64,000 nt of DNA from Maribacter thermophilus (lineage in GTDB: Bacteria; Bacteroidota; Bacteroidia; Flavobacteriales; Flavobacteriaceae): the NCBI RefSeq assembly GCF_001020565.1, contig NZ_LDAS01000001.1, positions 1,714,985-1,778,984 of the forward strand, written 5' to 3'. Position numbers and translations under genes: made by a program. The notes beneath the pieces were generated by a model that was given only the letters and a program-made list of their open reading frames with translations, was not told the origin of the DNA and did no database searches. Shown in pieces: positions 51,255 to 63,975 of this stretch. Every line of letters starts with the position of its first letter. The first letter of the stretch is position 1.

Positions 51255-53123
51255 ATGAACCTACTCACAGTTGAAAATATATCCAAATCCTACGGGGAAT
51301 TGGTCTTGTTCGAAAATCTTTCCTTTGGCATAAACAAAGACCAAAAGATTGCCTTGATCGCAAAGAACGGTAGCGGAAAGACCTCTATTTTAAATATTCT
51401 GTCGGGAGCCGATACTCCAGACACTGGGCAGGTAAATTATCGCAAAAGCACTAGAGTATCGTTTTTGGCGCAAGAGCCAATAATGAATCCTTCGTTAACG
51501 GTCGAGGAAACCATTTTCGCTTCCGACAATGAAATACTTCAGGTAATTGCGAATTACGAGAAAGCACTGGCAAACCCAGAAGACACAGAGGCTTACCAAA
51601 AAGCCTTTGAGGCCATGGACAGGTTTGAGGCATGGGATTTTGAAACCCAGTACAAACAGATTCTTTATAAATTAAAGCTAGAAGACCTGAACGCCAAAGT
51701 AGGAAAGCTTTCAGGTGGACAAAAAAAACGTTTGGCCTTAGCCAATGCACTTATAAACAGACCCGATCTTTTAATTCTTGATGAGCCCACGAACCACCTT
51801 GACCTAGAAATGATAGAGTGGCTAGAAGAGTATTTCGCAAAAGAAAACCTAACGCTTTTCATGGTCACGCATGACCGCTATTTTCTAGAACGTGTCTGTA
51901 ACGAAATATTGGAGTTGGATAACGGCACACTATACCCCTATAAGGGCAATTACTCTTATTACCTAGAAAAGAAAGAAGCAAGAATAGAACAGCAGGCGGT
52001 TGAGCAGCATAAGTCGGAAATACTTTTTAAAAAGGAACTGAGCTGGATGCGACGCCAGCCAAAAGCAAGGACTACAAAGTCGAAATCTAGAATAGACGAT
52101 TTTAATGCGATAAAAGAAAAGGCCAGCCAACGTAGAAAAGAGCACGAGGTTCAGTTGGAAATAAATATGGAGCGCATGGGAAACAAGATCATTGAGCTTC
52201 ATAAAATATCAAAATCGTTTCCCAATAAACCCATTTTAGACAAATTTGATTATTCTTTTACCAAAGGGGAAAGAGTCGGCATTATAGGAAAAAACGGTAC
52301 GGGAAAATCTACCTTCTTGAATATATTATCGGGAAAGGACCAACCCGACAGTGGCAAAGTAGTGGTAGGCGAAACCATCAAGTTTGGTTACTATACCCAA
52401 AAAGGCATACAAATAAAGGAAGGTCAGAAAGTTATCGATGTTATTCGCGAGTTCGGAGATTTTATTCCGTTGATGAAGGGAAGGCAAATTTCTGCACAAC
52501 AACTTTTGGAACGCTTTCTTTTTGACAGAAAAAAACAATATGACTTTGTAGAAAAACTTAGTGGAGGAGAACGCAAGCGGTTATACCTATGCACAGTTCT
52601 TATCCAAAACCCTAATTTCCTTATTCTAGACGAACCTACGAACGATCTGGACATTGTTACCTTAAATGTACTGGAAAGCTTCCTGTTAGATTTTCAGGGC
52701 TGCCTAATCGTTGTTTCACACGATCGCTATTTCATGGACAAAATAGTAGACCACCTATTTGTCTTTAAGGGCAAGGGCGTAATTGAGGATTTTCCCGGAA
52801 ACTATTCTGACTACAGAGCCTACGAAGACAGTCAGGTAATAGAAAAAAGAGAACAGAAAGATAAAACCGAAGCACCTAAAAACACCTGGAAAAAAACGGA
52901 ATCCGTTAAGTTATCCTATCAAGAACAAAAAGAGTTCAAACAATTAGAGAACGAAATACAAAAATTGGAATACAAAAAACAGGAAATACAGAATAAATTT
53001 ACAGATACTTCTTTATCGGGAGAACAAATAGAAGCTTTATCCGTAGAACTTGGGGAAGTTACCGATGCCATTGACACAAAAACCGAAAGATGGTTTGAGC
53101 TATCGGCCAAAATGGAGGGTTAA
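51255..53123 (+). CDS. ABC-F family ATPase (Uup-like)
   Basis: 622 aa with two ABC cassettes in one chain. The first has Walker A AKNGSGKTS, signature LSGGQKKR and Walker B LILDEPTNHLDL. The second has GKNGTGKST, LSGGERKR and LILDEPTNDLDI. A charged linker and a C-terminal coiled coil (EQKEFKQLENEIQKLEYKKQ) match Uup more than the antibiotic-resistance ABC-F types. No transmembrane part exists; such proteins act on the ribosome. It follows the Lnb-like gene after 15 nt. Confidence 0.93.
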   Translation: MNLLTVENISKSYGELVLFENLSFGINKDQKIALIAKNGSGKTSILNILSGADTPDTGQVNYRKSTRVSFLAQEPIMNPSLTVEETIFASDNEILQVIANYEKALANPEDTEAYQKAFEAMDRFEAWDFETQYKQILYKLKLEDLNAKVGKLSGGQKKRLALANALINRPDLLILDEPTNHLDLEMIEWLEEYFAKENLTLFMVTHDRYFLERVCNEILELDNGTLYPYKGNYSYYLEKKEARIEQQAVEQHKSEILFKKELSWMRRQPKARTTKSKSRIDDFNAIKEKASQRRKEHEVQLEINMERMGNKIIELHKISKSFPNKPILDKFDYSFTKGERVGIIGKNGTGKSTFLNILSGKDQPDSGKVVVGETIKFGYYTQKGIQIKEGQKVIDVIREFGDFIPLMKGRQISAQQLLERFLFDRKKQYDFVEKLSGGERKRLYLCTVLIQNPNFLILDEPTNDLDIVTLNVLESFLLDFQGCLIVVSHDRYFMDKIVDHLFVFKGKGVIEDFPGNYSDYRAYEDSQVIEKREQKDKTEAPKNTWKKTESVKLSYQEQKEFKQLENEIQKLEYKKQEIQNKFTDTSLSGEQIEALSVELGEVTDAIDTKTERWFELSAKMEG

Positions 53124-53194
53124 ACAAGGCTATAGGTTCCTTAAAAAATTAAAAACTACGGTTTAACTGCTTTAAAAATCGATAAAGTGAAATA

Positions 53195-53215
53195 GGCGCC
53201 CGAACCGTTCATCGA
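53195..53215 (+). promoter_or_regulatory. Conserved upstream box with LytTR-like core (copy 1)
   Basis: GGCGCCCGAACCGTTCATCGA is almost identical (18 of 21) to the box upstream of the paralogous gene at 61174. The core ACCGTTCAT satisfies the known LytTR half-site pattern. It ends 118 nt before the ATG at 53334. Confidence 0.55.
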
Positions 53216-53333
53216 GTGAATTTCGCACTTTGTCCGGTTACATGTCGGATAACGAGAAATTGGGGTTTTTCAGCGATTCACCACCCTTCAAAATACACTT
53301 GCGGTAGTTATAATAATGTAACAAACGCAAGTC

Positions 53334-53570
53334 ATGAAAACAATAGCAACCATCTTCTTTATCCTTTTTATAGGAACAACACTACAGGCCCAGAAAAACA
53401 CTACGGAAGAAAAGGTAGAGACCATGGAAATGACCATCGTTACCAAAATCGTTAACTCTACCGATTTTAAAACCAACACCGAGGTTGCAAGGTTGTACAA
53501 GTTCAAAAACGCAAGGGTAACCAAAGCTTTGTCTTTTACGACCAAAAGAAACAAGGCCAAAATGGCTTAA
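53334..53570 (+). CDS. Small secreted protein with conserved basic C-terminal motif (paralog 1)
   Basis: 78 aa. A signal peptide (MKTIATIFFILFIGTTLQAQ) is followed by a Thr/Glu-rich stretch and a strongly basic C-terminus, VARLYKFKNARVTKALSFTT and on to a final Ala. The last 29 residues match those of the 85-aa protein at 60917 closely (VARLY, KN, RV, KAL, FTTK kept), so the two are paralogs. Both have a near-identical upstream box at the same distance. No function is known to me. Confidence 0.78.
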   Translation: MKTIATIFFILFIGTTLQAQKNTTEEKVETMEMTIVTKIVNSTDFKTNTEVARLYKFKNARVTKALSFTTKRNKAKMA

Positions 53571-53670
53571 AAGAATACAGTTTTCATTTAAAGCTACTTG
53601 ATAACATCTTTAAAAAACCAATAATTTTATATACTTTGGCCGGCTCAAATTCTACTCAAGAGGCTAACCG

Positions 53671-54165
53671 GTGTATCGTTTACTTGCTTACCTAAAATTT
53701 CTGTTATCGTCCACCAACCAACACGGTGTACATTCTCCTTTTGTGTACAACTTCATTACCAAATCTTTATATCAAAAAAGAAACAAAAGGTGCTCGATTA
53801 CCGAAGATGTATTATTCAAAAGCATATCCTATTTTAAATATAAAAAGGTAGGTTTAATACAACCGGACAATTCGTTAAAATCGACCTTAGACTCAAAATT
53901 CGGTCATTTAGAATACAACACCACGCCCTACGATATTATTTTTACAGATTCTAAAAATGAACTTTTAGACAAAATATCAAAGCAGATATATCATAATGAT
54001 AGCGCTCTGTTGGTGCAAGGCATTCACAACTCAAAAGAACGGACAAGACTATGGGAGTCCATTAAAAAACTACCCGAAGTCACTGTCAGTATAGACTTAT
54101 TTTACTGTGGCTTGATATTTTTTAGGAGAGAGCAGGCAAAACAACATTTTAAGATACGGATATAA
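53671..54165 (+). CDS. Shortened SAM-methyltransferase-like protein
   Basis: 164 aa from a GTG start. The N-terminus (QHGVHSPFVYNFITKSLYQK) and the C-terminus (KKLPEVTVSIDLFYCGLIFFRREQAKQHF) match, as I recall, a flavobacterial class I methyltransferase family of about 230-250 aa. The middle, which would hold the glycine-rich SAM-binding motif, is shortened and no GxGxG-type loop is seen. It is probably a degraded or repurposed homolog. The frame is open with no stop codons, so it may still be expressed. Confidence 0.65.
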   Translation: MYRLLAYLKFLLSSTNQHGVHSPFVYNFITKSLYQKRNKRCSITEDVLFKSISYFKYKKVGLIQPDNSLKSTLDSKFGHLEYNTTPYDIIFTDSKNELLDKISKQIYHNDSALLVQGIHNSKERTRLWESIKKLPEVTVSIDLFYCGLIFFRREQAKQHFKIRI

Positions 54166-54196
54166 ACCCCTAAATTTATAATATAAGCTCTTAATT

Positions 54197-54337
54197 ATGG
54201 ACAACACTATTTACATTGTTTTAGGTGTCGTATTTGCCATATACCTGGCAATCACCATTATTAACCGAAGAAAATCCAAAGAAAGGAAATCGAGAAAATT
54301 TATGGATAATTACAAGAGAAACGACCCCAACAAATAA
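54197..54337 (+). CDS. Small single-pass membrane protein (46 aa)
   Basis: An ATG frame below usual length cut-offs encodes 46 aa: a short N-terminus, one hydrophobic helix (IYIVLGVVFAIYLAITII) and a basic tail rich in Arg/Lys (NRRKSKERKSRKF). It lies 31 nt after the methyltransferase-like gene and 39 nt before cobO, in the same direction. Such helix-plus-basic-tail proteins are common small membrane proteins. It is likely real, but the function is unknown. Confidence 0.6.
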   Translation: MDNTIYIVLGVVFAIYLAITIINRRKSKERKSRKFMDNYKRNDPNK

Positions 54338-54376
54338 CCGCTTTATCCATTTCAAGAAACCAATCCATTGTTATCA

Positions 54377-54952
54377 ATGAAAATATACACCAAAACAGGA
54401 GACAAGGGAACTACGGCACTTTTTGGTGGCACCAGGGTACCTAAACACCATATGCGCATAGAGAGTTACGGCACCTTGGACGAGCTAAATTCATGGTTGG
54501 GCCTCATAGGCGACCAAAATATAGATACTTTAAGCAAAGAACAGCTTATTACGATACAAAAAAAGCTATTCACTGTTGGCGCCATTTTAGCGACAGCACC
54601 CGAAAAGAGCATTTTAAAAAATGGGAACGAGCGCCTTACCATCGACAAAATAAATGATAATGATATTGCCTTTTTGGAAAAGGCCATTGATACCATGGAC
54701 AACGAACTACCGCCGATGACACATTTTATTCTTCCCGGGGGCCACACAACCGTGTCATACTGTCATATTGCACGTACCGTTTGCAGACGGGCTGAAAGAA
54801 TGGCGGTATTGTTATATGAAAACGAACCCTTTGATGACAGGGTACTCTCATATCTAAACAGGTTGTCCGATTACCTTTTTGTATTGGCACGAAAATTGTC
54901 AAGAGATTTATCAGTAAAGGAAATCAAATGGATTCCTGACAAAAAAGACTAA
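54377..54952 (+). CDS. ATP:cob(I)alamin adenosyltransferase (PduO type)
   Basis: It transfers the adenosyl group from ATP to cob(I)alamin, producing adenosylcobalamin. The 191-aa trimeric PduO-type product shows MKIYTKTGDKGTTALFGGTR at the N-terminus, the RIESYGTLDELNSWLG motif, and the C-terminal CRRAERMAV and RLSDYLFVLAR. The ATG at 54377 is preferred over a TTG at 54368. Its product is the cofactor of the CarH-like regulator at 26355, though not its neighbour. Confidence 0.93.
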   Translation: MKIYTKTGDKGTTALFGGTRVPKHHMRIESYGTLDELNSWLGLIGDQNIDTLSKEQLITIQKKLFTVGAILATAPEKSILKNGNERLTIDKINDNDIAFLEKAIDTMDNELPPMTHFILPGGHTTVSYCHIARTVCRRAERMAVLLYENEPFDDRVLSYLNRLSDYLFVLARKLSRDLSVKEIKWIPDKKD

Positions 54953-55032
54953 TAATTTCATATTTTAAACGTTATGAACTTATCAATGCGAAAAAAATGT
55001 TGATAACTATGCTGAAATAAATAGAAATTATC

Positions 55033-55062
55033 TTGGCTATTTACATTTAAAAATTATTTTTG
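55033..55062 (+). promoter_or_regulatory. Promoter of the DUF2795 gene
   Basis: TTG at 55033-55035, exactly 19 nt, then TATTTTTG at 55055-55062: a perfect Bacteroidota match, 27 nt before the ATG. Confidence 0.75.
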
Positions 55063-55089
55063 CAAAAAATTTAAAATCAAACAATTACC

Positions 55090-55314
55090 ATGTATTGGAC
55101 ATTAGAACTAGCGTCTTATTTAAGTGATGCACCTTGGCCGGCAAGTAAAGATGAGTTAATAGATTACTCAATCAGAACCGGTGCACCTTTAGAGGTTGTA
55201 GAAAACTTACAATCCATGGAGGAAGAGGGTGGCGAAATCTATGAGTCTATCGAGGAGATTTGGCCAGACTACCCAACCGAAGAAGATTACCTCTGGAATG
55301 AGGACGAATATTAA
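55090..55314 (+). CDS. DUF2795 family protein
   Basis: 74-aa acidic, soluble protein with the DUF2795 pattern (ASYLSDAPWPASKDELIDYS and LEVVENLQSMEEEGGEIYES). The family has no established function. It has its own consensus promoter and terminator, so it is a well-expressed single-gene unit just upstream of secA. The frame and start are secure. Confidence 0.88.
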   Translation: MYWTLELASYLSDAPWPASKDELIDYSIRTGAPLEVVENLQSMEEEGGEIYESIEEIWPDYPTEEDYLWNEDEY

Positions 55315-55337
55315 TATTTGATATCATAAATAACTAC

Positions 55338-55366
55338 TAAAAAGTCTCCTCGGAGGCTTTTTTTTT
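55338..55366 (+). terminator. Terminator after the DUF2795 gene
   Basis: A stem of GTCTCC with GGAGGC (one G-T pair) with a TC loop and nine T following. Confidence 0.85.
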
Positions 55367-55471
55367 ATGTAATTTTGACAGTCTTAAAAGGAATTTATGG
55401 CTCAAAGCCATACTGGAACACCTTTTGTTTAACTGAAGTGCCGATACCGATCATCGGCTACAAACAATTTA

Positions 55472-55499
55472 TTGAAAAACACATTGAATCTTAGGTTTC
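55472..55499 (+). promoter_or_regulatory. Candidate promoter of secA
   Basis: TTG at 55472-55474, 17 nt, then TAGGTTTC at 55492-55499 (seven of eight consensus bases), about 30 nt before the ATG. Confidence 0.4.
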
Positions 55500-55529
55500 G
55501 CAAATTTTCAATGTAAATTACAAATACAT

Positions 55530-58500
55530 ATGAATTTTATTAACTCCGTACTAAAGGCTTTCGTTGGTGACAAGTCAAAAAAAGATGTAAAAGAATTACA
55601 GCCTATAGTAAATCAGATAAAGTCGTTCGAATCCGAGTTCGAAAAATTAAGTTTAGATGAACTTAGAAACAAAACGGTTGTTTTTAAACAGACTATAAAA
55701 GATTCTTATAAGAACATTACCGAACAAATTGCCACTCTTGAAAAAGAAGTCAAAGCATCTACTGACATTGACAAAAACGAGGATATCTATGCAGAAATAG
55801 ATAAACTTAAAGAAGAAGCCTATAAAATATCGGAAGACACCCTAAACAAGATTCTTCCCGAAGCATTCGCTGTAGTCAAAGAGACCGCCAAGCGTTTTGC
55901 AAACAACGAAACCTTGACCGTGACCGCGACGGAAAATGACCGAAAATTATCTGGAGAGAAAGAATATGTAACCCTAGACGAGGATAAGGCCATCTGGAAA
56001 AACTCATGGAACGCCGCAGGTAAAGAAGTTACATGGGACATGGTGCATTACGATGTTCAGTTGATCGGTGGTATTGCACTACACCAAGGTAAAATTGCCG
56101 AAATGCAAACGGGTGAAGGTAAGACCTTAGTGGCTACTTTACCTTTATATCTAAACGCCCTTACCGGAAATGGCGCACACCTTGTAACGGTGAACGACTA
56201 CTTGGCAAAAAGGGATAGTGCCTGGATGGCACCAATTTTCGAATTCCATGGTTTGTCCGTAGATTGTATAGACCACCACAAACCTAACTCTGACGGTAGA
56301 AGGGCCGCATACAATGCCGATATTACCTACGGTACCAATAACGAGTTTGGTTTCGATTACCTAAGGGACAACATGGCACATACACCAAAAGACTTGGTGC
56401 AAAGACCACACAACTACGCTATTGTAGATGAAGTCGATTCTGTATTGATAGACGATGCCCGTACACCATTGATTATTTCTGGACCAGTACCAGAGGGTGA
56501 CAGACATGAATTTAACGAACTAAAACCAAAGGTCAGTGAAATAGTCCAGAAACAGAGACAACATTTGACAGGTGTACTGGCCGAAGCCAAAAAATTAATT
56601 GCCGAGGGCAACACCAAAGAAGGAGGCTTTCTTTTATTAAGGGTTTACAGAGGTTTACCCAAAAACAAGGCATTGATCAAGTTCTTGAGCGAAGAAGGTG
56701 TAAAACAACTACTTCAGAAAACCGAGAATTTCTACATGCAAGACAACAACCGTGAAATGCCTAAGGTAGACGAAGACCTGTTGTTTGTTATCGATGAAAA
56801 AAACAACCAGATAGAGTTGACCGATAAAGGTGTAAACTATATATCCGGTGCAGAGGACAAAGATTTCTTTGTAATGCCAGATATCGGTGCAGAAATCGCC
56901 AAGATAGAGGAACAAAATCTTGATATTGAAAAAGAAGCTGAGCTTAAAGAAGAGCTTTTTAAAGATTTCACGGTAAAAAGTGAACGTATCCATACAATGA
57001 GTCAATTACTTAAAGCGTATACGCTTTTTGAAAAGGACGTTGAATATGTTGTTATGGACAATAAAGTGATGATCGTAGACGAACAGACCGGTCGTATTAT
57101 GGACGGCCGTAGGTATTCCGATGGTCTTCACCAAGCCATTGAAGCAAAAGAAAACGTTAAGATCGAAGCATTAACACAAACCTTTGCCACCGTTACTTTA
57201 CAGAACTATTTTAGAATGTACCGTAAACTGGCAGGTATGACAGGTACGGCCGTAACCGAAGCAGGGGAATTTTGGGAAATCTACAAACTTGATGTTATGG
57301 AGATCCCTACAAACAGGCCTATAGCCCGTGATGACCGTAACGATTTGATCTATAAGACAAAAAGGGAAAAATACAATGCCATTATAGAGGAAGTTACCCA
57401 ATTGAGCAAAGCGGGAAGACCGGTATTGATCGGTACCACTTCGGTAGAAATATCAGAATTGCTCTCAAAACTTTTGAGCGTACGTAAAGTACCCCACAAT
57501 GTATTAAATGCCAAACTCCATAAGAAAGAAGCCGATGTTGTGGCAGAGGCCGGTAAACCGGGCGTAGTTACCATCGCTACGAACATGGCAGGTAGGGGTA
57601 CGGATATTAAACTTTCGGAAGAAGTAAAAAAAGCTGGTGGTTTGGCCATTATAGGTACCGAACGCCACGACTCTAGACGTGTAGACAGACAGTTAAGAGG
57701 ACGTTCTGGCCGTCAGGGAGATCCAGGAAGCTCGCAATTCTATGTTTCTTTAGAAGACAACCTAATGCGTTTGTTCGGATCGGACAGGGTTGCCAAGATG
57801 ATGGACAAAATGGGATTGGAAGATGGTGAGGTCATTCAACATAGTATGATGACCAAATCTATAGAAAGAGCCCAGAAAAAAGTAGAGGAAAACAACTTTG
57901 GGGTACGTAAGCGTTTATTGGAATATGATGATGTAATGAACGCCCAACGTGAAGTTGTCTACAAAAGAAGAAGACATGCACTACAAGGTGATCGCTTAAA
58001 AGTGGATATCGCCAATATGGTCTATGATACTTGTGAAGTAATCGTAGAAGGCAACAAAGCGGCCAACGACTATAAAAATTTCGAATTTGAGCTGATCAAA
58101 TATTTCTCAATGACCTCTCCCGTAAGCGAAGAGGAATTTGGAAAGATGAGTGCCCAAGAAATTACCGGAAAGGTTTATAAGGCCGGATACGATCATTACA
58201 AAGAAAAAATGGAACGAAATGCCGCAGCTGCATTTCCTGTAATAAAACAAGTATACGAAGACAATGCCAATAACTTTGAACGTATCGTAGTACCATTTAC
58301 GGACGGGGTTAAAACACTTAACGTTGTTACCAACCTCAAAGAAGCCTATGAAAGTGATGGTAAACAATTGGTCACTGATTTTGAAAAGAATATTTCTCTT
58401 GCCATTATAGACGACTCTTGGAAAACCCATTTAAGAAAAATGGACGAATTAAAGCAGTCGGTACAATTAGCTGTTCACGAACAAAAAGACCCTTTGTTGA

Positions 58501-58892
58501 TTTATAAATTTGAAGCGTTTGAACTCTTTAAATCAATGATAGAGAAGGTAAACAAAGAAATAGTTTCTTTCCTATTCAAAGGAGAGCTACCTTCAGGGAA
58601 CCCCAATGAGATCAGAGAAGCAAGAAATGTTCAACAAAAAAGGGAAAAAATACAGACCTCGAAAGAAGAGATTCCTAACAGTGACGAGCTTGCAGCACAG
58701 AACAGGGCCGCTGGACAAACACAAAGGCAACGACCCGCCGTTACCGAAACAATTACCAGAGAACAGCCTAAAATTGGCAGAAACGAACGGGTAACCATAA
58801 AAAATGTAATGTCGGGCGAGAGCAAGGTTGTTAAATATAAACAAGCCGAACCTTTGATCGCCAAGGGCGAATGGGTCATTACCCAAGATTAG
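55530..58892 (+). CDS. secA: Preprotein translocase subunit SecA
   Basis: Motor ATPase that pushes unfolded preproteins through SecYEG. The 1120-aa product has Walker A MQTGEGKTL near residues 191-199, the DEVD box near residue 299, a preprotein cross-linking domain, the second nucleotide domain with IATNMAGRGTDIKL, and the helical scaffold. It is longer than E. coli SecA (901) because of extra segments in the first half, including about 590-700 bases around 56500-56990, typical for Bacteroidota. The C-terminus lacks the zinc-binding CxCxS tail. It has its own terminator. Confidence 0.97.
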   Translation: MNFINSVLKAFVGDKSKKDVKELQPIVNQIKSFESEFEKLSLDELRNKTVVFKQTIKDSYKNITEQIATLEKEVKASTDIDKNEDIYAEIDKLKEEAYKISEDTLNKILPEAFAVVKETAKRFANNETLTVTATENDRKLSGEKEYVTLDEDKAIWKNSWNAAGKEVTWDMVHYDVQLIGGIALHQGKIAEMQTGEGKTLVATLPLYLNALTGNGAHLVTVNDYLAKRDSAWMAPIFEFHGLSVDCIDHHKPNSDGRRAAYNADITYGTNNEFGFDYLRDNMAHTPKDLVQRPHNYAIVDEVDSVLIDDARTPLIISGPVPEGDRHEFNELKPKVSEIVQKQRQHLTGVLAEAKKLIAEGNTKEGGFLLLRVYRGLPKNKALIKFLSEEGVKQLLQKTENFYMQDNNREMPKVDEDLLFVIDEKNNQIELTDKGVNYISGAEDKDFFVMPDIGAEIAKIEEQNLDIEKEAELKEELFKDFTVKSERIHTMSQLLKAYTLFEKDVEYVVMDNKVMIVDEQTGRIMDGRRYSDGLHQAIEAKENVKIEALTQTFATVTLQNYFRMYRKLAGMTGTAVTEAGEFWEIYKLDVMEIPTNRPIARDDRNDLIYKTKREKYNAIIEEVTQLSKAGRPVLIGTTSVEISELLSKLLSVRKVPHNVLNAKLHKKEADVVAEAGKPGVVTIATNMAGRGTDIKLSEEVKKAGGLAIIGTERHDSRRVDRQLRGRSGRQGDPGSSQFYVSLEDNLMRLFGSDRVAKMMDKMGLEDGEVIQHSMMTKSIERAQKKVEENNFGVRKRLLEYDDVMNAQREVVYKRRRHALQGDRLKVDIANMVYDTCEVIVEGNKAANDYKNFEFELIKYFSMTSPVSEEEFGKMSAQEITGKVYKAGYDHYKEKMERNAAAAFPVIKQVYEDNANNFERIVVPFTDGVKTLNVVTNLKEAYESDGKQLVTDFEKNISLAIIDDSWKTHLRKMDELKQSVQLAVHEQKDPLLIYKFEAFELFKSMIEKVNKEIVSFLFKGELPSGNPNEIREARNVQQKREKIQTSKEEIPNSDELAAQNRAAGQTQRQRPAVTETITREQPKIGRNERVTIKNVMSGESKVVKYKQAEPLIAKGEWVITQD

Positions 58893-58912
58893 TACAAGTT
58901 ATTTATATAATT

Positions 58913-58950
58913 GCAATAAAAAAGACACTCTTCAGTGTCTTTTTTATTGC
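58913..58950 (+). terminator. Terminator after secA
   Basis: A 17-bp perfect stem (58913-58929 with 58934-58950) around a CTTC loop; the stem itself carries A and T tracts. Confidence 0.85.
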
Positions 58951-59396
58951 CTACCTGTCTAGGTCCTATCCGTAAAATATGTAACCTCAGCCTACGAGTT
59001 GATTTACAAATTTTATATATCTTTAAAAGAACCTATAACGAGACACAATGAAAAATTTAATGAAAAACCATAATTCGCCCATTGGCACATGGCAATCAAC
59101 GCCAAAAACACTCTTATATGTTTTTTGTCATAACAAATTCGAAAAACTATAGTTTTGCTTGGCTTTATTTTTATCTCAAAAAACAATAAGCTATCTAAAA
59201 CTTACCAGCCCATAATTATAAATTGTATTAAAATTAATTAAACTCGATAAAAATCAAGAGTTTATAGATGTACGTACAAAAGAAGTTATTTATGGGATAT
59301 CAAAAATAAGGTAAACCAAAAAATCTTAGTATTATGTTAAAAACATAACTAGATTTACGCACAAAATACTTGATTACCGGTTACTAAACAGAAACT
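58951..59396. other. Intergenic region before the histidine kinase
   Basis: 446 nt of AT-rich DNA with no convincing gene. The best frame is a 34-codon ATG frame at 59048-59152 preceded by weak promoter-like bases (TTG at 58999, TATCTTTA at 59018), which I do not call. TAGATTTA at 59350-59357 could be the -7 of the histidine kinase promoter. Confidence 0.5.
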
Positions 59397-60611
59397 ATGC
59401 CAGATTCTCTAATAGAACAAGAACGTCTTAGAAATAAAATAAAGTTAGTTCTAAAAGTAAATTATGTCGCAAGTGCTATTGCAATTACTTTTGGATTAGT
59501 TTGTTTCTTTCTACTGGATATAAAGGAGATTATACCTTACGTACTGGTTATTTTCGGATCGTTGAATTTCATCAACATCCAGTTCTTTAAACTAAAAAAG
59601 AACCTTACCCTTACATACAATATTTCTTCTATCCTTGCATTGATAAGTGCTTTGACCATTACACTATACAGTGGGGGCATCCATAGCCCATTTATATTTA
59701 TGCTGGCGATAATTGTATTTGCGGCCTATCTTAATACGCAAAGAAACGGACAAGTCTATCTCAATTTTATTTTCGTACTCGTACTTCTAATTTTTACCCA
59801 AAGTTTTCCTGAATTAAGTTTTACCGAAAATGTTATCCCAACAGAGTATAGGAATGTTTTCAGTTTAATATCCATTTTGTTCTCGCTGTACTTATTGGGC
59901 AATATTTTTGGAAAAGTATTATTGAAGACCCATAACTCGCTCTATACTTCAAAAAAGGAATTGACAATACAGATGTACGAAAAGGAAATGTTACTTAAAG
60001 AAGTGCATCACAGGGTAAAAAACAACTTACAAACCGTTTCTAGTCTACTTAGCCTACAAAGTAGAAGTGTAACCGAAAGAAAAATGAAAGAGTTACTAAA
60101 AAGCACCCAAAATAGGGTCATTTCTATGGCTATGGTCCATGAAATGCTCTACATGAGAAAAGATATAAGCCAAATAGAATATAAATCCTATGTTCAAGAA
60201 CTGAGCGAATATTTGATCAGGTCTATAAAAGGACTCGACAGTAAAGTGAATTTGAAGATTGATATTCCAGATATTAAATTGGGCATAGATACCGCCATAC
60301 CTTTAGGCTTACTTATTAACGAAGCGGTTACCAATGCCTTAAAATATGGATTTACAGATGATGAAGAAGGAGAAATATATATTGCCCTAAAACAAGAACT
60401 GGACAAACAGTATACTCTTAATATTGGAGATAACGGTGTTGGTTTTCCAGATACGATCAATTATAAAAACACCAAATCGCTGGGGTTAAAATTAATTTAC
60501 AACCTTACAAGACAGTTAAAAGGCACTATACAAAAAGACAATAGCAAAAAAGGCACAAACTACATCATTAAATTTCAAGAAGTAAAACAACAGCTATCTC
60601 CGGTTGCATAA
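59397..60611 (+). CDS. Membrane sensor histidine kinase, HisKA_2 type
   Basis: 404 aa. About six N-terminal membrane helices (to about residue 180) form the sensor. A short coiled coil then leads to the HisKA_2 phospho-acceptor box EVHHRVKNNLQTVSSLLSLQ, followed by a HATPase_c domain with an N box (LLINEAVTNALKYGF) and G1 (IGDNGVGFP). No response regulator gene is adjacent, so it is an orphan kinase. The signal is unknown. The small secreted protein at 60917 is the next annotated gene downstream, on the other strand. Confidence 0.9.
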   Translation: MPDSLIEQERLRNKIKLVLKVNYVASAIAITFGLVCFFLLDIKEIIPYVLVIFGSLNFINIQFFKLKKNLTLTYNISSILALISALTITLYSGGIHSPFIFMLAIIVFAAYLNTQRNGQVYLNFIFVLVLLIFTQSFPELSFTENVIPTEYRNVFSLISILFSLYLLGNIFGKVLLKTHNSLYTSKKELTIQMYEKEMLLKEVHHRVKNNLQTVSSLLSLQSRSVTERKMKELLKSTQNRVISMAMVHEMLYMRKDISQIEYKSYVQELSEYLIRSIKGLDSKVNLKIDIPDIKLGIDTAIPLGLLINEAVTNALKYGFTDDEEGEIYIALKQELDKQYTLNIGDNGVGFPDTINYKNTKSLGLKLIYNLTRQLKGTIQKDNSKKGTNYIIKFQEVKQQLSPVA

Positions 60612-60742
60612 ATTTGAAATAAACCAAACTATCACCCCTATCTTTAAAGCCCCATTTGCACCAATACAAGCGGGTTCCAAAAGACCTTCTGGCATACCGT
60701 ACACAAAAAATCAGTGTGCGATAAAAAACATACTACCGCCCC

Positions 60743-60862
60743 TTAGAACTTTCTTTGTTGAACAGGAACCTTTATAGGTTTAAGACTTCCCTTTGATTTT
60801 GGGAATATCAATAAATGGGAAACAACTAAAACAACGGGTATTATGGTAATAAATAATAACAT
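60743..60862 (-). CDS. Possible 39-aa membrane peptide
   Basis: A minus-strand ATG frame of 39 codons encodes a hydrophobic stretch (MLLFITIIPVVLVVSHLLIF) and a basic tail (KGSLKPIKVPVQQRKF). It lies 54 nt beyond the stop of the small secreted protein gene and may be co-transcribed. AT-rich DNA can give such frames by chance, so support is weak. Confidence 0.3.
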   Translation of the reverse strand: MLLFITIIPVVLVVSHLLIFPKSKGSLKPIKVPVQQRKF

Positions 60863-60916
60863 AGCATTTTGTTTTAATAAAGTACTTAATTGCACTCTAC
60901 AATTGTATTACAAAGG

Positions 60917-61174
60917 TTATGCCAATTTTGGTCTATCCTTTTTTGTGGTAAAAAACAAGGCTTTTTTAACCCTTGAATTTTTGTAGCGATATAACCTGGC
61001 CACACCATTGGTTTCAATTCTTTCTTTCTGGCCAAGGTCTTCTACTTTTAGGTTTTCTGCCATTTGCACCACACCTACTGTAGACACATCAACTTTGTGC
61101 TCAACATTTGCACTTTGTGCGAAAGAAACAGCTCCGAAAAAAAGAGTTAAAGACAAGGTTAAAATAGCTTTCAT
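60917..61174 (-). CDS. Small secreted protein with conserved basic C-terminal motif (paralog 2)
   Basis: 85 aa. Signal peptide MKAILTLSLTLFFGAVSFAQ, an acidic middle, then VARLYRYKNSRVKKALFFTT and a Lys/Arg/Pro tail ending LA. The C-terminal 29 residues align almost gap-free with the protein at 53334. It is preceded 117 nt upstream by the same 21-bp box. The kinase gene is convergent next to it. I do not know a function. Confidence 0.78.
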   Translation of the reverse strand: MKAILTLSLTLFFGAVSFAQSANVEHKVDVSTVGVVQMAENLKVEDLGQKERIETNGVARLYRYKNSRVKKALFFTTKKDRPKLA

Positions 61175-61291
61175 AACATTGATTTGGGTTATATAAAGCT
61201 AACTTCAGATGATAAAAAGTATCGTTACCTATCGTTTAAATACAAGGTTTTTCGATAACAAAACAAAGGTTGGATAAAGGGTACAAAATTG

Positions 61292-61312
61292 TCGATGAAC
61301 GTTTTGGGCACC
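61292..61312 (-). promoter_or_regulatory. Conserved upstream box with LytTR-like core (copy 2)
   Basis: On the minus strand GGTGCCCAAAACGTTCATCGA, the counterpart of the box at 53195. The core AACGTTCAT also fits the LytTR half-site pattern. It ends 117 nt before the ATG at 61174. Confidence 0.55.
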
Positions 61313-61425
61313 ACGATCAACACATCGAAAAAACAGGTAGATAATCGGCAGTTTTCTCTTTACAAAAAGCCCCATCCCTCTTTAAATAAGAGAAGAAAAC
61401 CTAATTATGATGTATTATAAATGGA

Positions 61426-63975
61426 CTAATTAACCTCTTTTCTCAACACCTGCAATGGAGGACTTTTAAGAACACTAATATTGTTGGACAATCCTATTAA
61501 CAAGACCAATAACGTAATACCTGGAAGCACGACAAAAAATGGAATCATTGAGGGTACGAACGGAGTTTCAAAAATAAAATATGCCAATAACTGACTACTG
61601 ATCAACGAAAGTAAAATCCCCATTCCAGTACCCAACAACCCTAGGTACAAATATTCTAAAGCGGCCATCTTTAGTATCTGATTGCTCTTGGCACCGATTG
61701 TCCTAAGAAGTACACTTTCCCTAACTCGCTGATACCGACTGTTTCTTACCGAACCTATTAAAACAATTATGCCCGTTAAGATGCTAAAAAAAGCCATAAA
61801 TGTGACCACCCAAGAAATTTTGTCCAAAATACCTTCTATCAAGGTAAGTACCTGTCGCAAGTCTAAAATAGAGACATTCGGAAAGCTTTTCACCAATTCG
61901 CGCTGAATATTGGCGGACGACAACTTATCTGGAGCATTGGTGGTCAACACATGAAATTGTGGAGCGTTCTCTAAAATCCCTGTCGGAAATACCACCGAAA
62001 AATTCATTTGCATTCTTCCCCAATCCACTTCCCTAATACTTCCAACAATTGTTTCCATCAGCATCCCTTGAACATTGAAGACCAAAGTATCTCCCACCAC
62101 AACCTGAGCGTCATTGGCCACATTATCGGACAACGATATGGGTACCGGCCTACCCGGAACCACTTTTGCGTCAAAATCTCCAGAAATCAATTTTTCTGAA
62201 CCGATCAAAGAATCACGATAGGTTACCCTAAACTCATGGTTTAATATCCATTTGTTTATTGTCGTAGTCGAATCTAAACGTATGGCGTTTACACTTCGAT
62301 CCTTGATCCGATCTAAACGCATAGTAATAATCGGAATATTATCTATAATCGGCAGTTTCTTTGCCTTTATAGCCTTGATCATATCTTCTTTTTGTCCATT
62401 TTGAACATCGAACATAATCAGGTTAGGACTTTTTTCATTGGCCTCCAATGAGGTTTTGGCCAACAAAAAATCTTTTGTAAAGTAGAGGGTTCCTATCAAA
62501 AAGGTTCCAATACCAATGGCCAAGATCAATACCGCGGTTTGATTGTTGGGCCTATAAAGATTTAGTAAACTTTGTCTTGAAACAAAACTCCAAGATTTAG
62601 GAAAATAACGTTTTACCAATCGCATAAAAAATTGCGACATACCCCATAAAACCGCAAAAGTCACCAATATACCTATTACAAAGCTAGAGGCATACTTAAA
62701 ATTATCGAGCAACCAATACGCGAATAAAAATACAAAGAGTACTATGGCCAAGAATACAAATATTTGAGCTTTTCTAGATTTGCCCCCAACATTCTCTTGT
62801 ACCCTTAAAACTTGTAATGGAGATACAAACCAAGTATTTAATAAGGGCGATAATGCAAAAAGAACCGACATTAATATGCCCAAGACCAAACCTACGACAA
62901 TGGCTTGATAAGAGGTAGATATTTGAACCTGAAAAGGCAAAAACTCTTGTAAGATCAAAGGAAAGGATTCTTGCAATAGTAGCCCGATCGTTGTTCCTAT
63001 GATGCCTCCCAGCAATCCCATTCCCGCAATTTGCAGCAAGAAAATAAGAAATGTCTGCTTTCTGGTAGCTCCCAAACACTTTAAGACTGCTACCGCCTTT
63101 AATTTTTCTTTTATATAAATATGAACGGAACTGGCTATACCCACACAGCCTAACAGTAATGCTATAAAGGCTACCAAGTTCAAAAAACGCCCAACATTGT
63201 CATACCTTCTTCCCAACCTCTGACTCGTAGAGGTGTGTGTATCAAGATCTGCATTTTGCTCATCCAACAAAGGATCTAGTTCTTTATCCAACTTTTCGAG
63301 GTCTGCATCAGGGGCCTTAAAATAATAGGCATAATCCAACCTACTTCCCTTCTGCAACAACCCACTAGATTCCATAAAACCATAAGGAACCATAATCGGT
63401 GGCGCTACCGAAGTTCCAATTCCCGTGCTTCCCGGGGCCGTGACCAACGAACCAATTATGGGAAAGGTCTTGTTCCCTAATTTTACACTGTCTCCCACCA
63501 CTAGATTAAACTGGAGCATAACGGTAGCATCTATTAGGGCACCAGATTCGGCTTGATATCTTACTGCCGCATCCGCAGGTTCTGTTTCGAGTTCACCATA
63601 AAAAGGAAAATTACCTTCCACTCCCCTAACCTGTACCAATTTAGTGGCACCGTTTTTAGAAAATGCGGCCATAGATGCAAACTTTACCTCCATAGCATCC
63701 GCACCACCAAGTGAATCCATTATAGACAATACCCGCTCATTGGCAGGTTCATTACTATCTATTAAAAAATCGGCTCCCATTAAGGCCTTTGACTGATTTC
63801 CAATGTTGTCCTTTAAATTTTCACTGAAAGATTGTATGGAGACTACCGCTGCAATCCCCAATACAATAGATGCCATAAACAACAGCAATCTTTTGCCGCT
63901 TGCCTTACCATCTCGCCATGCCATTTTAAACAACCAGCCCAACGAAGCCTTTGAAGTATATTTTAAATCGCTCAA
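61426..63975 (-). CDS. FtsX-like ABC transporter permease (YbbP-like)
   Basis: 849 aa with about ten membrane helices in two FtsX/MacB-type blocks (about 245-370 and 725-840), separated by periplasmic domains. Conserved text such as AVAVLKCLGATRKQTFLIFLL and SVLLRTIGAKSNQILKMAAL marks the two core FtsX loops. It lies at the window edge. The start is TTG at 63975, supported by an in-frame stop at 63985. No ATPase gene is nearby in the window; the partner is probably beyond position 64000. Confidence 0.9.
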   Translation of the reverse strand: MSDLKYTSKASLGWLFKMAWRDGKASGKRLLLFMASIVLGIAAVVSIQSFSENLKDNIGNQSKALMGADFLIDSNEPANERVLSIMDSLGGADAMEVKFASMAAFSKNGATKLVQVRGVEGNFPFYGELETEPADAAVRYQAESGALIDATVMLQFNLVVGDSVKLGNKTFPIIGSLVTAPGSTGIGTSVAPPIMVPYGFMESSGLLQKGSRLDYAYYFKAPDADLEKLDKELDPLLDEQNADLDTHTSTSQRLGRRYDNVGRFLNLVAFIALLLGCVGIASSVHIYIKEKLKAVAVLKCLGATRKQTFLIFLLQIAGMGLLGGIIGTTIGLLLQESFPLILQEFLPFQVQISTSYQAIVVGLVLGILMSVLFALSPLLNTWFVSPLQVLRVQENVGGKSRKAQIFVFLAIVLFVFLFAYWLLDNFKYASSFVIGILVTFAVLWGMSQFFMRLVKRYFPKSWSFVSRQSLLNLYRPNNQTAVLILAIGIGTFLIGTLYFTKDFLLAKTSLEANEKSPNLIMFDVQNGQKEDMIKAIKAKKLPIIDNIPIITMRLDRIKDRSVNAIRLDSTTTINKWILNHEFRVTYRDSLIGSEKLISGDFDAKVVPGRPVPISLSDNVANDAQVVVGDTLVFNVQGMLMETIVGSIREVDWGRMQMNFSVVFPTGILENAPQFHVLTTNAPDKLSSANIQRELVKSFPNVSILDLRQVLTLIEGILDKISWVVTFMAFFSILTGIIVLIGSVRNSRYQRVRESVLLRTIGAKSNQILKMAALEYLYLGLLGTGMGILLSLISSQLLAYFIFETPFVPSMIPFFVVLPGITLLVLLIGLSNNISVLKSPPLQVLRKEVN

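Follow-up and report, generated by a model that had tools for sequence, protein, structure and literature searches.

The binding sites of LytTR-type regulators share no common consensus sequence (PMC4847170; this and the other papers cited are represented here by extracts). In the operator of E. coli YpdB at yhjX, two copies of GGCATTTCAT are separated by an 11-bp spacer, giving a period of 21 bp (PMC4847170), and AlgR of Pseudomonas aeruginosa binds the sequence CCGTTCGTC (PMC4064291). The CoxC operator holds three repeats of TTNNNGCN at 18-21 bp (PMC11347149), the putative LytTR operators of Bacteroides LRS-like operons are 11-bp direct repeats, 11 bp apart, upstream of the promoter, and LytTR control of bacteriocin genes is also known (both PMC6193735). 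Here we describe two paralogous genes, A and B, for small exported-type proteins in a 64,000-nt stretch of the Maribacter thermophilus genome (contig NZ_LDAS01000001.1, positions 1,714,985 to 1,778,984; hereafter the window), and the 128-bp leader with an array of six phased sites that precedes them.

The flavobacterial consensus TGCATTTCATCGA, with its period of about 21 bp, resembles the YpdB operator as given in the extract, but YpdB has two sites whereas the leaders hold up to four forward and two reverse ones with an additional CGA, and targets and sensor differ. Several S3 sites (e.g. ACCGTTCGTCGA) have the AlgR sequence as their core, although the AlgR sites described are single and scattered and those reported here form a phased array. 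More than two direct repeats at a two-helical-turn spacing of 18-21 bp are shared with CoxC and RcoM, but CoxC is a membrane-bound repressor of CO genes and its repeat sequence is another one. The Bacteroides operators belong to the same phylum and are likewise direct repeats upstream of a promoter, but consist of two repeats of TCCGGTATTCA before the regulator operon itself. In the streptococcal HdrRM/BrsRM bacteriocin systems direct repeats also lie upstream of small exported peptide genes, whereas the flavobacterial genes have a Sec-type signal peptide, no double-glycine leader, no adjacent LytTR gene and a wider set of targets. Literature searches (protein motif, site letters, LytTR in flavobacteria, type IX secretion system (T9SS), Maribacter/Zobellia) listed no match describing this system and none describing a flavobacterial LytTR operator, the nearest in the phylum being the putative Bacteroides one (PMC6193735, extract).

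The family and its leader

Genes A and B belong to an unnamed family characterized by a signal peptide, an acidic middle and a conserved basic C-terminal stretch of 29 residues. The initial annotation had pointed out two genes with a signal peptide and a VARLY-type end, and this is confirmed; the two are paralogues (34/86 residues identical, E 1e-15) with the common ending VARLY[KR][FY]KN[AS]RV..KAL.FTTK....K[ML]A, and the N-termini are signal-peptide-like as judged by eye. The 4.05-Mb genome encodes four members, two of them inside the window. The third (C1:1780932-1781165), beyond the window end, is a near-identical copy of gene A, and the fourth, which is diverged, adjoins it.

Upstream of the two genes, the 21-mers reported earlier are indeed identical at 18 of 21 positions and end in CGTTCATCGA, with the ATG following after 118 nt (gene A) and 117 nt (gene B). 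This box is site 3 of six in a 128-bp leader, where two reverse sites are followed by four forward sites spaced 21-19-21 bp. The 147 members analyzed gave 143 distinct upstream regions (core 108, KHSR 9, MRTI 10 and MKSI 16), and the six sites were revealed by box-anchored conservation in 106 core leaders. When 70 non-redundant leaders were scanned with a matrix of S3 only, the top places included forward +40, +21 and +61 and reverse -25 and -45; an extra forward place at -33, scoring between +21 and +61 and overlapping a reverse site, is attributed to the self-complementary CG. A pooled matrix of 420 sites reads TGC[AC]NTTYANCGA. An array score of at least 25 was reached by 95 of 108 core leaders and by all nine KHSR leaders, a divergent subclass left out of matrix building, as compared to none of 1974 random 230-mers from the window (eight of which reach 20). 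Spacing is 21-19-21 in 77 and 21-19-20 in 15 of the 108 core leaders, and in the standard layout the ATG lies 67 nt downstream of the start of the last forward site (66-67 nt in KHSR). The KHSR and MRTI leaders are otherwise unlike the core leaders, yet their sites keep the 19-21 spacing (KHSR 9/9). In the window leaders themselves, S4 and S5 are degenerate. Some MKSI genes occur as tandem copies without a scoring array, e.g. L062 (five in a row), L065 and L068 (L numbers denote loci), and some MKSI copies have an inverted pair GTAGACGAATG...CCATTCGTCTAC that by eye is close to the AlgR site. Many other family leaders have, by eye and uncounted, an inverted repeat in a comparable position, of a sequence other than that before gene A (Table 1).

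A regulon defined by the exact decamer was rejected, as CGTTCATCGA is not enriched in the genome (8 places vs. 6 for a reversed-pattern control) and is uninformative alone. At three of the eight places a family gene begins 117-118 nt further on; the third of these genes is the near-identical copy 2.3 kb past the window end. A two-site pattern with up to two mismatches performed no better (24 places vs. 24 in the control), although both one-mismatch places are at family genes. Elsewhere the exact decamer is scarce, with five occurrences in 118 upstream regions from Maribacter and other-genus loci, and the relaxed box CGTTYRYCGR is found 112-124 nt before the start in 66 of the 118. The initial annotation had made its case depend on the box being present in other species and not placed at random: the exact box is mostly absent there, while the array is present and non-random.

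Linkage of leader and gene was analyzed with a leader model (R1), the E-values of which are rough. In its own genome R1 gave three strong matches (E 2.9e-22, 3.6e-21 and 6.7e-20), two of them from its training set, and each is located before a family gene; the fourth paralogue scored 0.019 and the best non-family place 0.014. R1 was also applied to 20 further genomes, where every one of its 71 matches at E<=1e-4 is followed after 53-71 nt by the start of a family match; this count excludes 28 leader rows weaker than 1e-4. Conversely, 71 of the 94 listed secreted-type family matches (E<=4.4e-5) have an R1 leader, leaving out six C-terminal-only protein matches and weak N-terminal-only ones. A full leader (L114:11612-11733, 73.7 bits) was also observed before a gene with the family N-terminus and an altered C-terminal half. 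A structured RNA leader or Rfam family was ruled out, since RNAalifold gave 0 pairs over 33 leaders and Rfam no match near gathering score in window positions 52900-61700.

The leaders agree with the direct-repeat pattern of LytTR operators (9-11 bp repeats, 10-13 bp apart, period about 20-22 bp), and they have GCATTTCAT in common with YpdB and CCGTTCGTC with AlgR, the CGA being extra here. The proposed fit of the box to a LytTR half-site thus stands with regard to repeat type and sequence, but the box is only one of six sites. A shared, position-fixed element of LytTR type is supported by this comparison.

Arrays upstream of other genes

R1 also led away from the family. Among the 28 weaker leader rows mentioned above are two from other Maribacter genomes that represent four-site arrays. 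They score 41.9 and 38.4, as compared to 24.8 for the highest of ten 64-kb Markov controls, and precede a 43-aa exported-type peptide with a KRKLTKRI-type end, unrelated in sequence to the family. This second exported-type peptide (42-50 aa) is present in the M. thermophilus genome (L339:2187-2330, G000:C1 ~1023186; G numbers denote genomes) and at L303, L304, L352, L353 and L358; it is lipoprotein-like in two genera and has a KRKLTKKI-type end in most. Its four-site array points away from the gene, and it is followed by a multi-transmembrane protein of 180-225 aa, the own-genome one without Pfam match. A gene for a PorX-like regulator, by sequence reading, neighbours the second peptide in eight genomes.

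A model trained on 26 family leaders only (R2) gave 28-47 matches per genome at E<=1 in ten genomes and recovered the peptide-2 promoter in six of them. Of its non-family places that were fetched, 18 of 20 are intergenic by a simple open reading frame (ORF) map; the other two fall in an ORF with a likely start further downstream (L346) and in a 105-aa ORF (L349). A two-site model (R3) was built from 24 sequences, 20 being non-family arrays. In its own genome R3 gave 54 matches at E<=5, about ten of which are training sequences, and it was also run on 15 genomes outside its training. At E<=0.01 it found 11, 7, 6 and 6 matches in four family-positive genomes, 13, 12, 6, 2, 1 and 0 in six Flavobacteriaceae without family match, and 5, 0, 0, 0 and 0 in five genomes of other families. 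Loci from these untrained genomes (30 of 69 matches) are intergenic in 29 cases, as compared to 756 of 5161 control positions taken from these loci (15%), although the intergenic share alone overstates the case since both R3 and intergenic DNA are AT-rich. Of 20 additional R3 loci in the own genome (E 9e-4 to 0.22), among which three are family leaders, 19 are intergenic.

To assess the recurrence of targets, the ORFs flanking 72 array loci, including three family leaders, were compared with each other by blastp; synteny is expected to account for part of the neighbourhoods that related genomes share. The peptide-2 neighbourhood recurs in nine genomes of six genera (own, G018, G032, G033, G090, G114, G165, G272 and G284), the peptide ORF itself being read in the first six. 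The other recurrent neighbours are uvrC with a 5-formyl-THF (tetrahydrofolate) ligase-like gene (own, G258, G272, G284), Ig/cadherin-type lipoproteins (own, G433, G258, G079), a subtilase (own, G272, G114), an LRR protein (own, G082, G086), a small zinc-ribbon-like protein (G209, G444, G072), a lipocalin-like lipoprotein (own, G165), a YraN-like gene with a divergent partner (own, G272), a PorP/SprF-like gene (own, G165, G258; the own-genome array is behind the gene) and a NeuD-like gene (own, G284; the own array overlaps the ORF start). A CAP lipoprotein is directly behind the array in G209 and G079 and merely a neighbour in the own genome. In the family-negative Flavobacteriaceae G082 and G086 a gldK-like gene follows the array after 115-130 nt (L408, L418), which hints that the same operator type might control T9SS genes, and in the own genome a curlin-repeat protein (PF07012) is located 245 nt after a weak array (L376, G000:C1:1199090-1199124, E 0.04). 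Names were taken from Pfam for the own-genome protein in the case of subtilase, LRR, Ig/Big_9, lipocalin, CAP, curlin, REC-GerE and kinase, and otherwise read from sequence. The suggested small regulon of exported peptides is consequently too narrow, as arrays also precede surface and secreted proteins, a kinase gene and uvrC; the uvrC and YraN-like products are not exported.

Taken together, the strength of the case is the fixed phasing, the linkage of leader and gene and the recurrence of targets.

Regulator, products and alternative explanations

We consider it fairly probable, as a whole, that genes A and B encode exported small basic proteins expressed from activator-type promoters under control of a LytTR array, as part of a wider surface regulon. 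A phosphorylated LytTR-type response regulator would bind the phased half-sites (two reverse and four forward, about 21 bp apart) and thereby turn on expression, and the shorter arrays before other genes would be bound by this regulator or by a related one of equal specificity. These other targets would often be exported or surface-located, such as the second 42-50 aa peptide, LRR and Ig/cadherin-type proteins and the subtilase, and in some genomes the CAP-domain lipoprotein and gldK may also be included.

The M. thermophilus genome encodes 20 LytTR proteins, and control by a single LytTR-type regulator, as proposed in the initial annotation, is not supported in that wording. In G018 a three-site array (score 32.1, R2 E 1.5e-5) is located between a REC-LytTR gene and a TPR-HisKA_2 kinase gene, before the kinase, and the own genome has a weaker counterpart (21.3, R3 E 0.16) between the corresponding genes, the two regulators being 93% identical. 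As the array lies between both genes in two genomes, which suggests that this REC-LytTR regulator would be autoregulated via the intervening array, it is the best single candidate; the ranking also takes into account that the kinase part of the HisKA_2 kinase beside gene B is 40% identical over 205 residues to the kinase next to it. The array-linked REC-LytTR protein is accordingly ranked first, with less than even odds of being the regulator, and the gene-B-adjacent kinase is a possible input to the circuit. Two LytTR regulators (L262/L419 and L265/L420) adjoin TPR-HisKA_2 kinases, and the best NCBIfam match of their receivers is a PhyR-type response regulator model, below cut-off.

With regard to the products, the strongest purifying selection falls on the basic C-terminal 29-mer, with a ratio of nonsynonymous to synonymous differences (pN/pS) of 0.10, as compared to 0.16 in the signal part and 0.38 in the middle (316 pairs of 39 sequences, all 78 aa). 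Mean charge is -4.2 in the middle and +7.2 at the C-terminus (n=40), and -1/+8 and -3/+9 in the two window proteins. After cleavage of the signal an acidic stretch (-4) would thus stand before the basic 29-mer (+7), and the product, once exported, would probably resemble a precursor or be a peptide that binds to the envelope. Its most likely place of action is the envelope or the exterior of the cell, within a surface/biofilm programme. AlphaFold2 (51 sequences) predicted a signal helix at residues 3-20 of gene A and disorder in the rest. No sorting-domain model for type IX secretion was found among the NCBIfam matches of 20 members. The C-terminal sorting domain of that pathway comprises about 70-100 aa, and the mature part of gene A about 58 aa in total.

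Several observations weigh against this explanation. A score of 25 is reached by none of the 16 MKSI and four of the ten MRTI leaders, and 23 of the 94 family genes in the 20 genomes lack an R1 leader (15 are assigned by coordinates to the KHSR, MRTI or MKSI types of Maribacter; eight, unclassed, are in other genera). Many arrays outside the family are weak, and part of the R3 training set came from own-genome matches, which reappear by construction; at 0.01 R3 found none in G083, a family-negative Flavobacteriaceae, or in four of the five other-family genomes. When the leaders were masked in 822 kb around family loci, all intergenic two-site arrays stayed below 18, and the motif gave 1 match vs. 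4 for the mirrored motif at score 18 and 7 vs. 11 at 16, so that extra arrays near family loci were rejected as not above background. Around the 20 LytTR genes (3-kb loci), the 25 highest-ranking rows include no array scoring at least 25, the best being 20.6. Concerning the products, no fold beyond the signal helix was predicted for gene A (mean predicted local distance difference test (pLDDT) 58.9, predicted template modelling score (pTM) 0.21), and the C-terminal motif is also found without signal peptide beside a metG-like gene, so export is maybe not essential to the motif. These signal-less proteins (53-59 aa, ..VVRLYKDKNHRVKKELRFESKMNNTKL[AST]) are encoded divergently from the metG-like gene at L297:2778-2957, L298:2756-2947, L299, L300, L301 and L302 (Zobellia, Maribacter and two other genera). 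Finally CGA, the strongest part of the motif, falls outside the LytTR consensus.

This last point also bears on the view that the array is genuine but read by another regulator, e.g. an AraC-type or a NarL/LuxR-type response regulator. AraC-type half-sites are also about 21 bp apart, and an own-genome array is located 401 nt before a gene for a REC-GerE response regulator. On the other hand, TGCATTTCAT with its period of about 21 bp is nearly identical to the YpdB operator and CCGTTCGTC reads as AlgR (both from the extracts cited), and the array between the REC-LytTR and kinase genes was found in two genomes; another type of regulator is, in our opinion, the less likely reader.

The products could alternatively be secreted antimicrobials or bacteriocins, in which the acidic pro-part neutralizes the cationic C-terminus and LytTR control resembles that of Gram-positive bacteriocins. 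The charge split of -4/+7, the several copies per genome with a variable middle and the known LytTR-controlled bacteriocin genes (PMC6193735, extract) are in line with this. The variation falls, however, in the middle and not in the basic part, and a signal-less version exists. Of class II bacteriocin traits, no double-glycine leader was seen and no exporter or immunity gene was recognized beside the window genes, and no significant match was obtained in PADLOC, PHROGs, Pfam or NCBIfam. An antimicrobial role is therefore rather unlikely.

Less likely still, the peptides would be the exported signals of a communication circuit, sensed by the HisKA_2 kinase next to them. Peptide quorum sensing commonly involves LytTR regulators, and the kinase cluster is present in 26 of 41 sequences compared. 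SecA and the permease are, however, as frequent as the kinase (26 each), so its presence is perhaps only ancestral synteny, and passage through the outer membrane is left unexplained. That there is no regulon at all, the leader being a promoter or RNA leader private to the family and merely copied with the gene, is improbable even though all 71 leader matches precede family genes and neighbouring copies have leader and gene in common, as the KHSR and MRTI leaders differ otherwise and keep the 19-21 spacing, arrays, some of them found by a model trained on the family only, stand before unrelated genes whose neighbourhood is the same in several genera, and no RNA structure was detected.

The LytTR-controlled surface regulon can also be extended to an autoregulated TPR-HisKA_2/REC-LytTR circuit of Flavobacteriaceae, the main outputs of which would be exported basic peptides of two unrelated classes, along with curlin, surface adhesins and T9SS genes, and where the peptides would be secreted signals or matrix-active agents of a surface-colonization programme without a described counterpart in Bacteroidota. 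In this full form the proposal is doubtful.

Genomic setting, distribution and significance

The features in and next to the two leaders are collected in Table 1.

Table 1. Position of the family genes, their leaders and related features in the window.
Feature	Position	Strand	Remarks
Family gene A	53334-53570	+	78 aa; signal peptide ~1-20, variable middle, basic C-terminal 29 aa EVARLYKFKNARVTKALSFTTKRNKAKMA
Family gene B	60917-61174	-	85 aa; plan as gene A; C-terminal 29 aa GVARLYRYKNSRVKKALFFTTKKDRPKLA
128-bp operator-array leader, gene A	53156-53280	+	Model R1, E 2.9e-22 in own genome; training-set sequence
128-bp operator-array leader, gene B	61230-61351	-	Model R1, E 6.7e-20 in own genome; training-set sequence
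Reverse sites S1, S2, gene A	53160-53190	-	Starts 53168 and 53188, 20 bp apart
Site S3, gene A (initially annotated box CGTTCATCGA)	53206-53215	+	
Site S3, gene B (initially annotated box CGTTCATCGA)	61292-61301	-	
Sites S4, S5, S6, gene A	53227-53280	+	Starts 53227, 53246, 53267; spacing 21-19-21 from S3
Sites S4, S5, S6, gene B	61228-61280	-	Starts 61280, 61261, 61241; spacing 21-19-20 from S3
Inverted repeat GTTATAATAATGTAAC over presumed -10/start region	53307-53322	+	11 nt before gene A ATG
HisKA_2 histidine kinase beside gene B	59397-60611	+	Frequent family neighbour

The neighbours in the window are genes for ABC-F, a 164-aa protein without assignment, a cobalamin adenosyltransferase-like protein, SecA, the kinase and an ABC permease-like protein. 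Most compared loci have a conserved region in the order SecA, HisKA_2 kinase, family, ABC permease, lipase-like gene, family, and several family copies sit outside it (e.g. L114, L115, L126).

Each of the 35 same-genus genomes searched has a family match, with a best E of at most 1.5e-14 and between 2 and 11 matches at E<=0.1. In a sample of 397 Flavobacteriaceae genomes, 135 match at E<=0.001 and 70, own genome included, at E<1e-10; copy numbers from this search are lower bounds, since at most 13 candidates were scored per genome. Up to eight intact copies per genome were found in 20 genomes searched in full. A pattern scan retained 76 loci, from Maribacter, Zobellia, Pseudozobellia, Ulvibacterium, Eudoraea, Poritiphilus, Kriegella, Euzebyella, Muriicola, Aurantibacter, Arenibacter, Pricia, Lentiprolixibacter and further relatives. 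No significant match to a known family was obtained for the exported proteins in Pfam, NCBIfam, PADLOC, PHROGs or PDB sequences, the best weak ones being E 0.00092 in Pfam (DUF4969) and E 0.003 in NCBIfam.

LytTR regulators are numerous in this flavobacterium, and the precisely spaced arrays before most genes of the family and before other exported and surface proteins point to an undescribed control circuit in marine flavobacteria. The phased operator and the list of targets make the regulator, the signal and the regulon directly testable. The unnamed exported-type family, present in about one in six of the sampled Flavobacteriaceae, may act in surface life on algae and particles.

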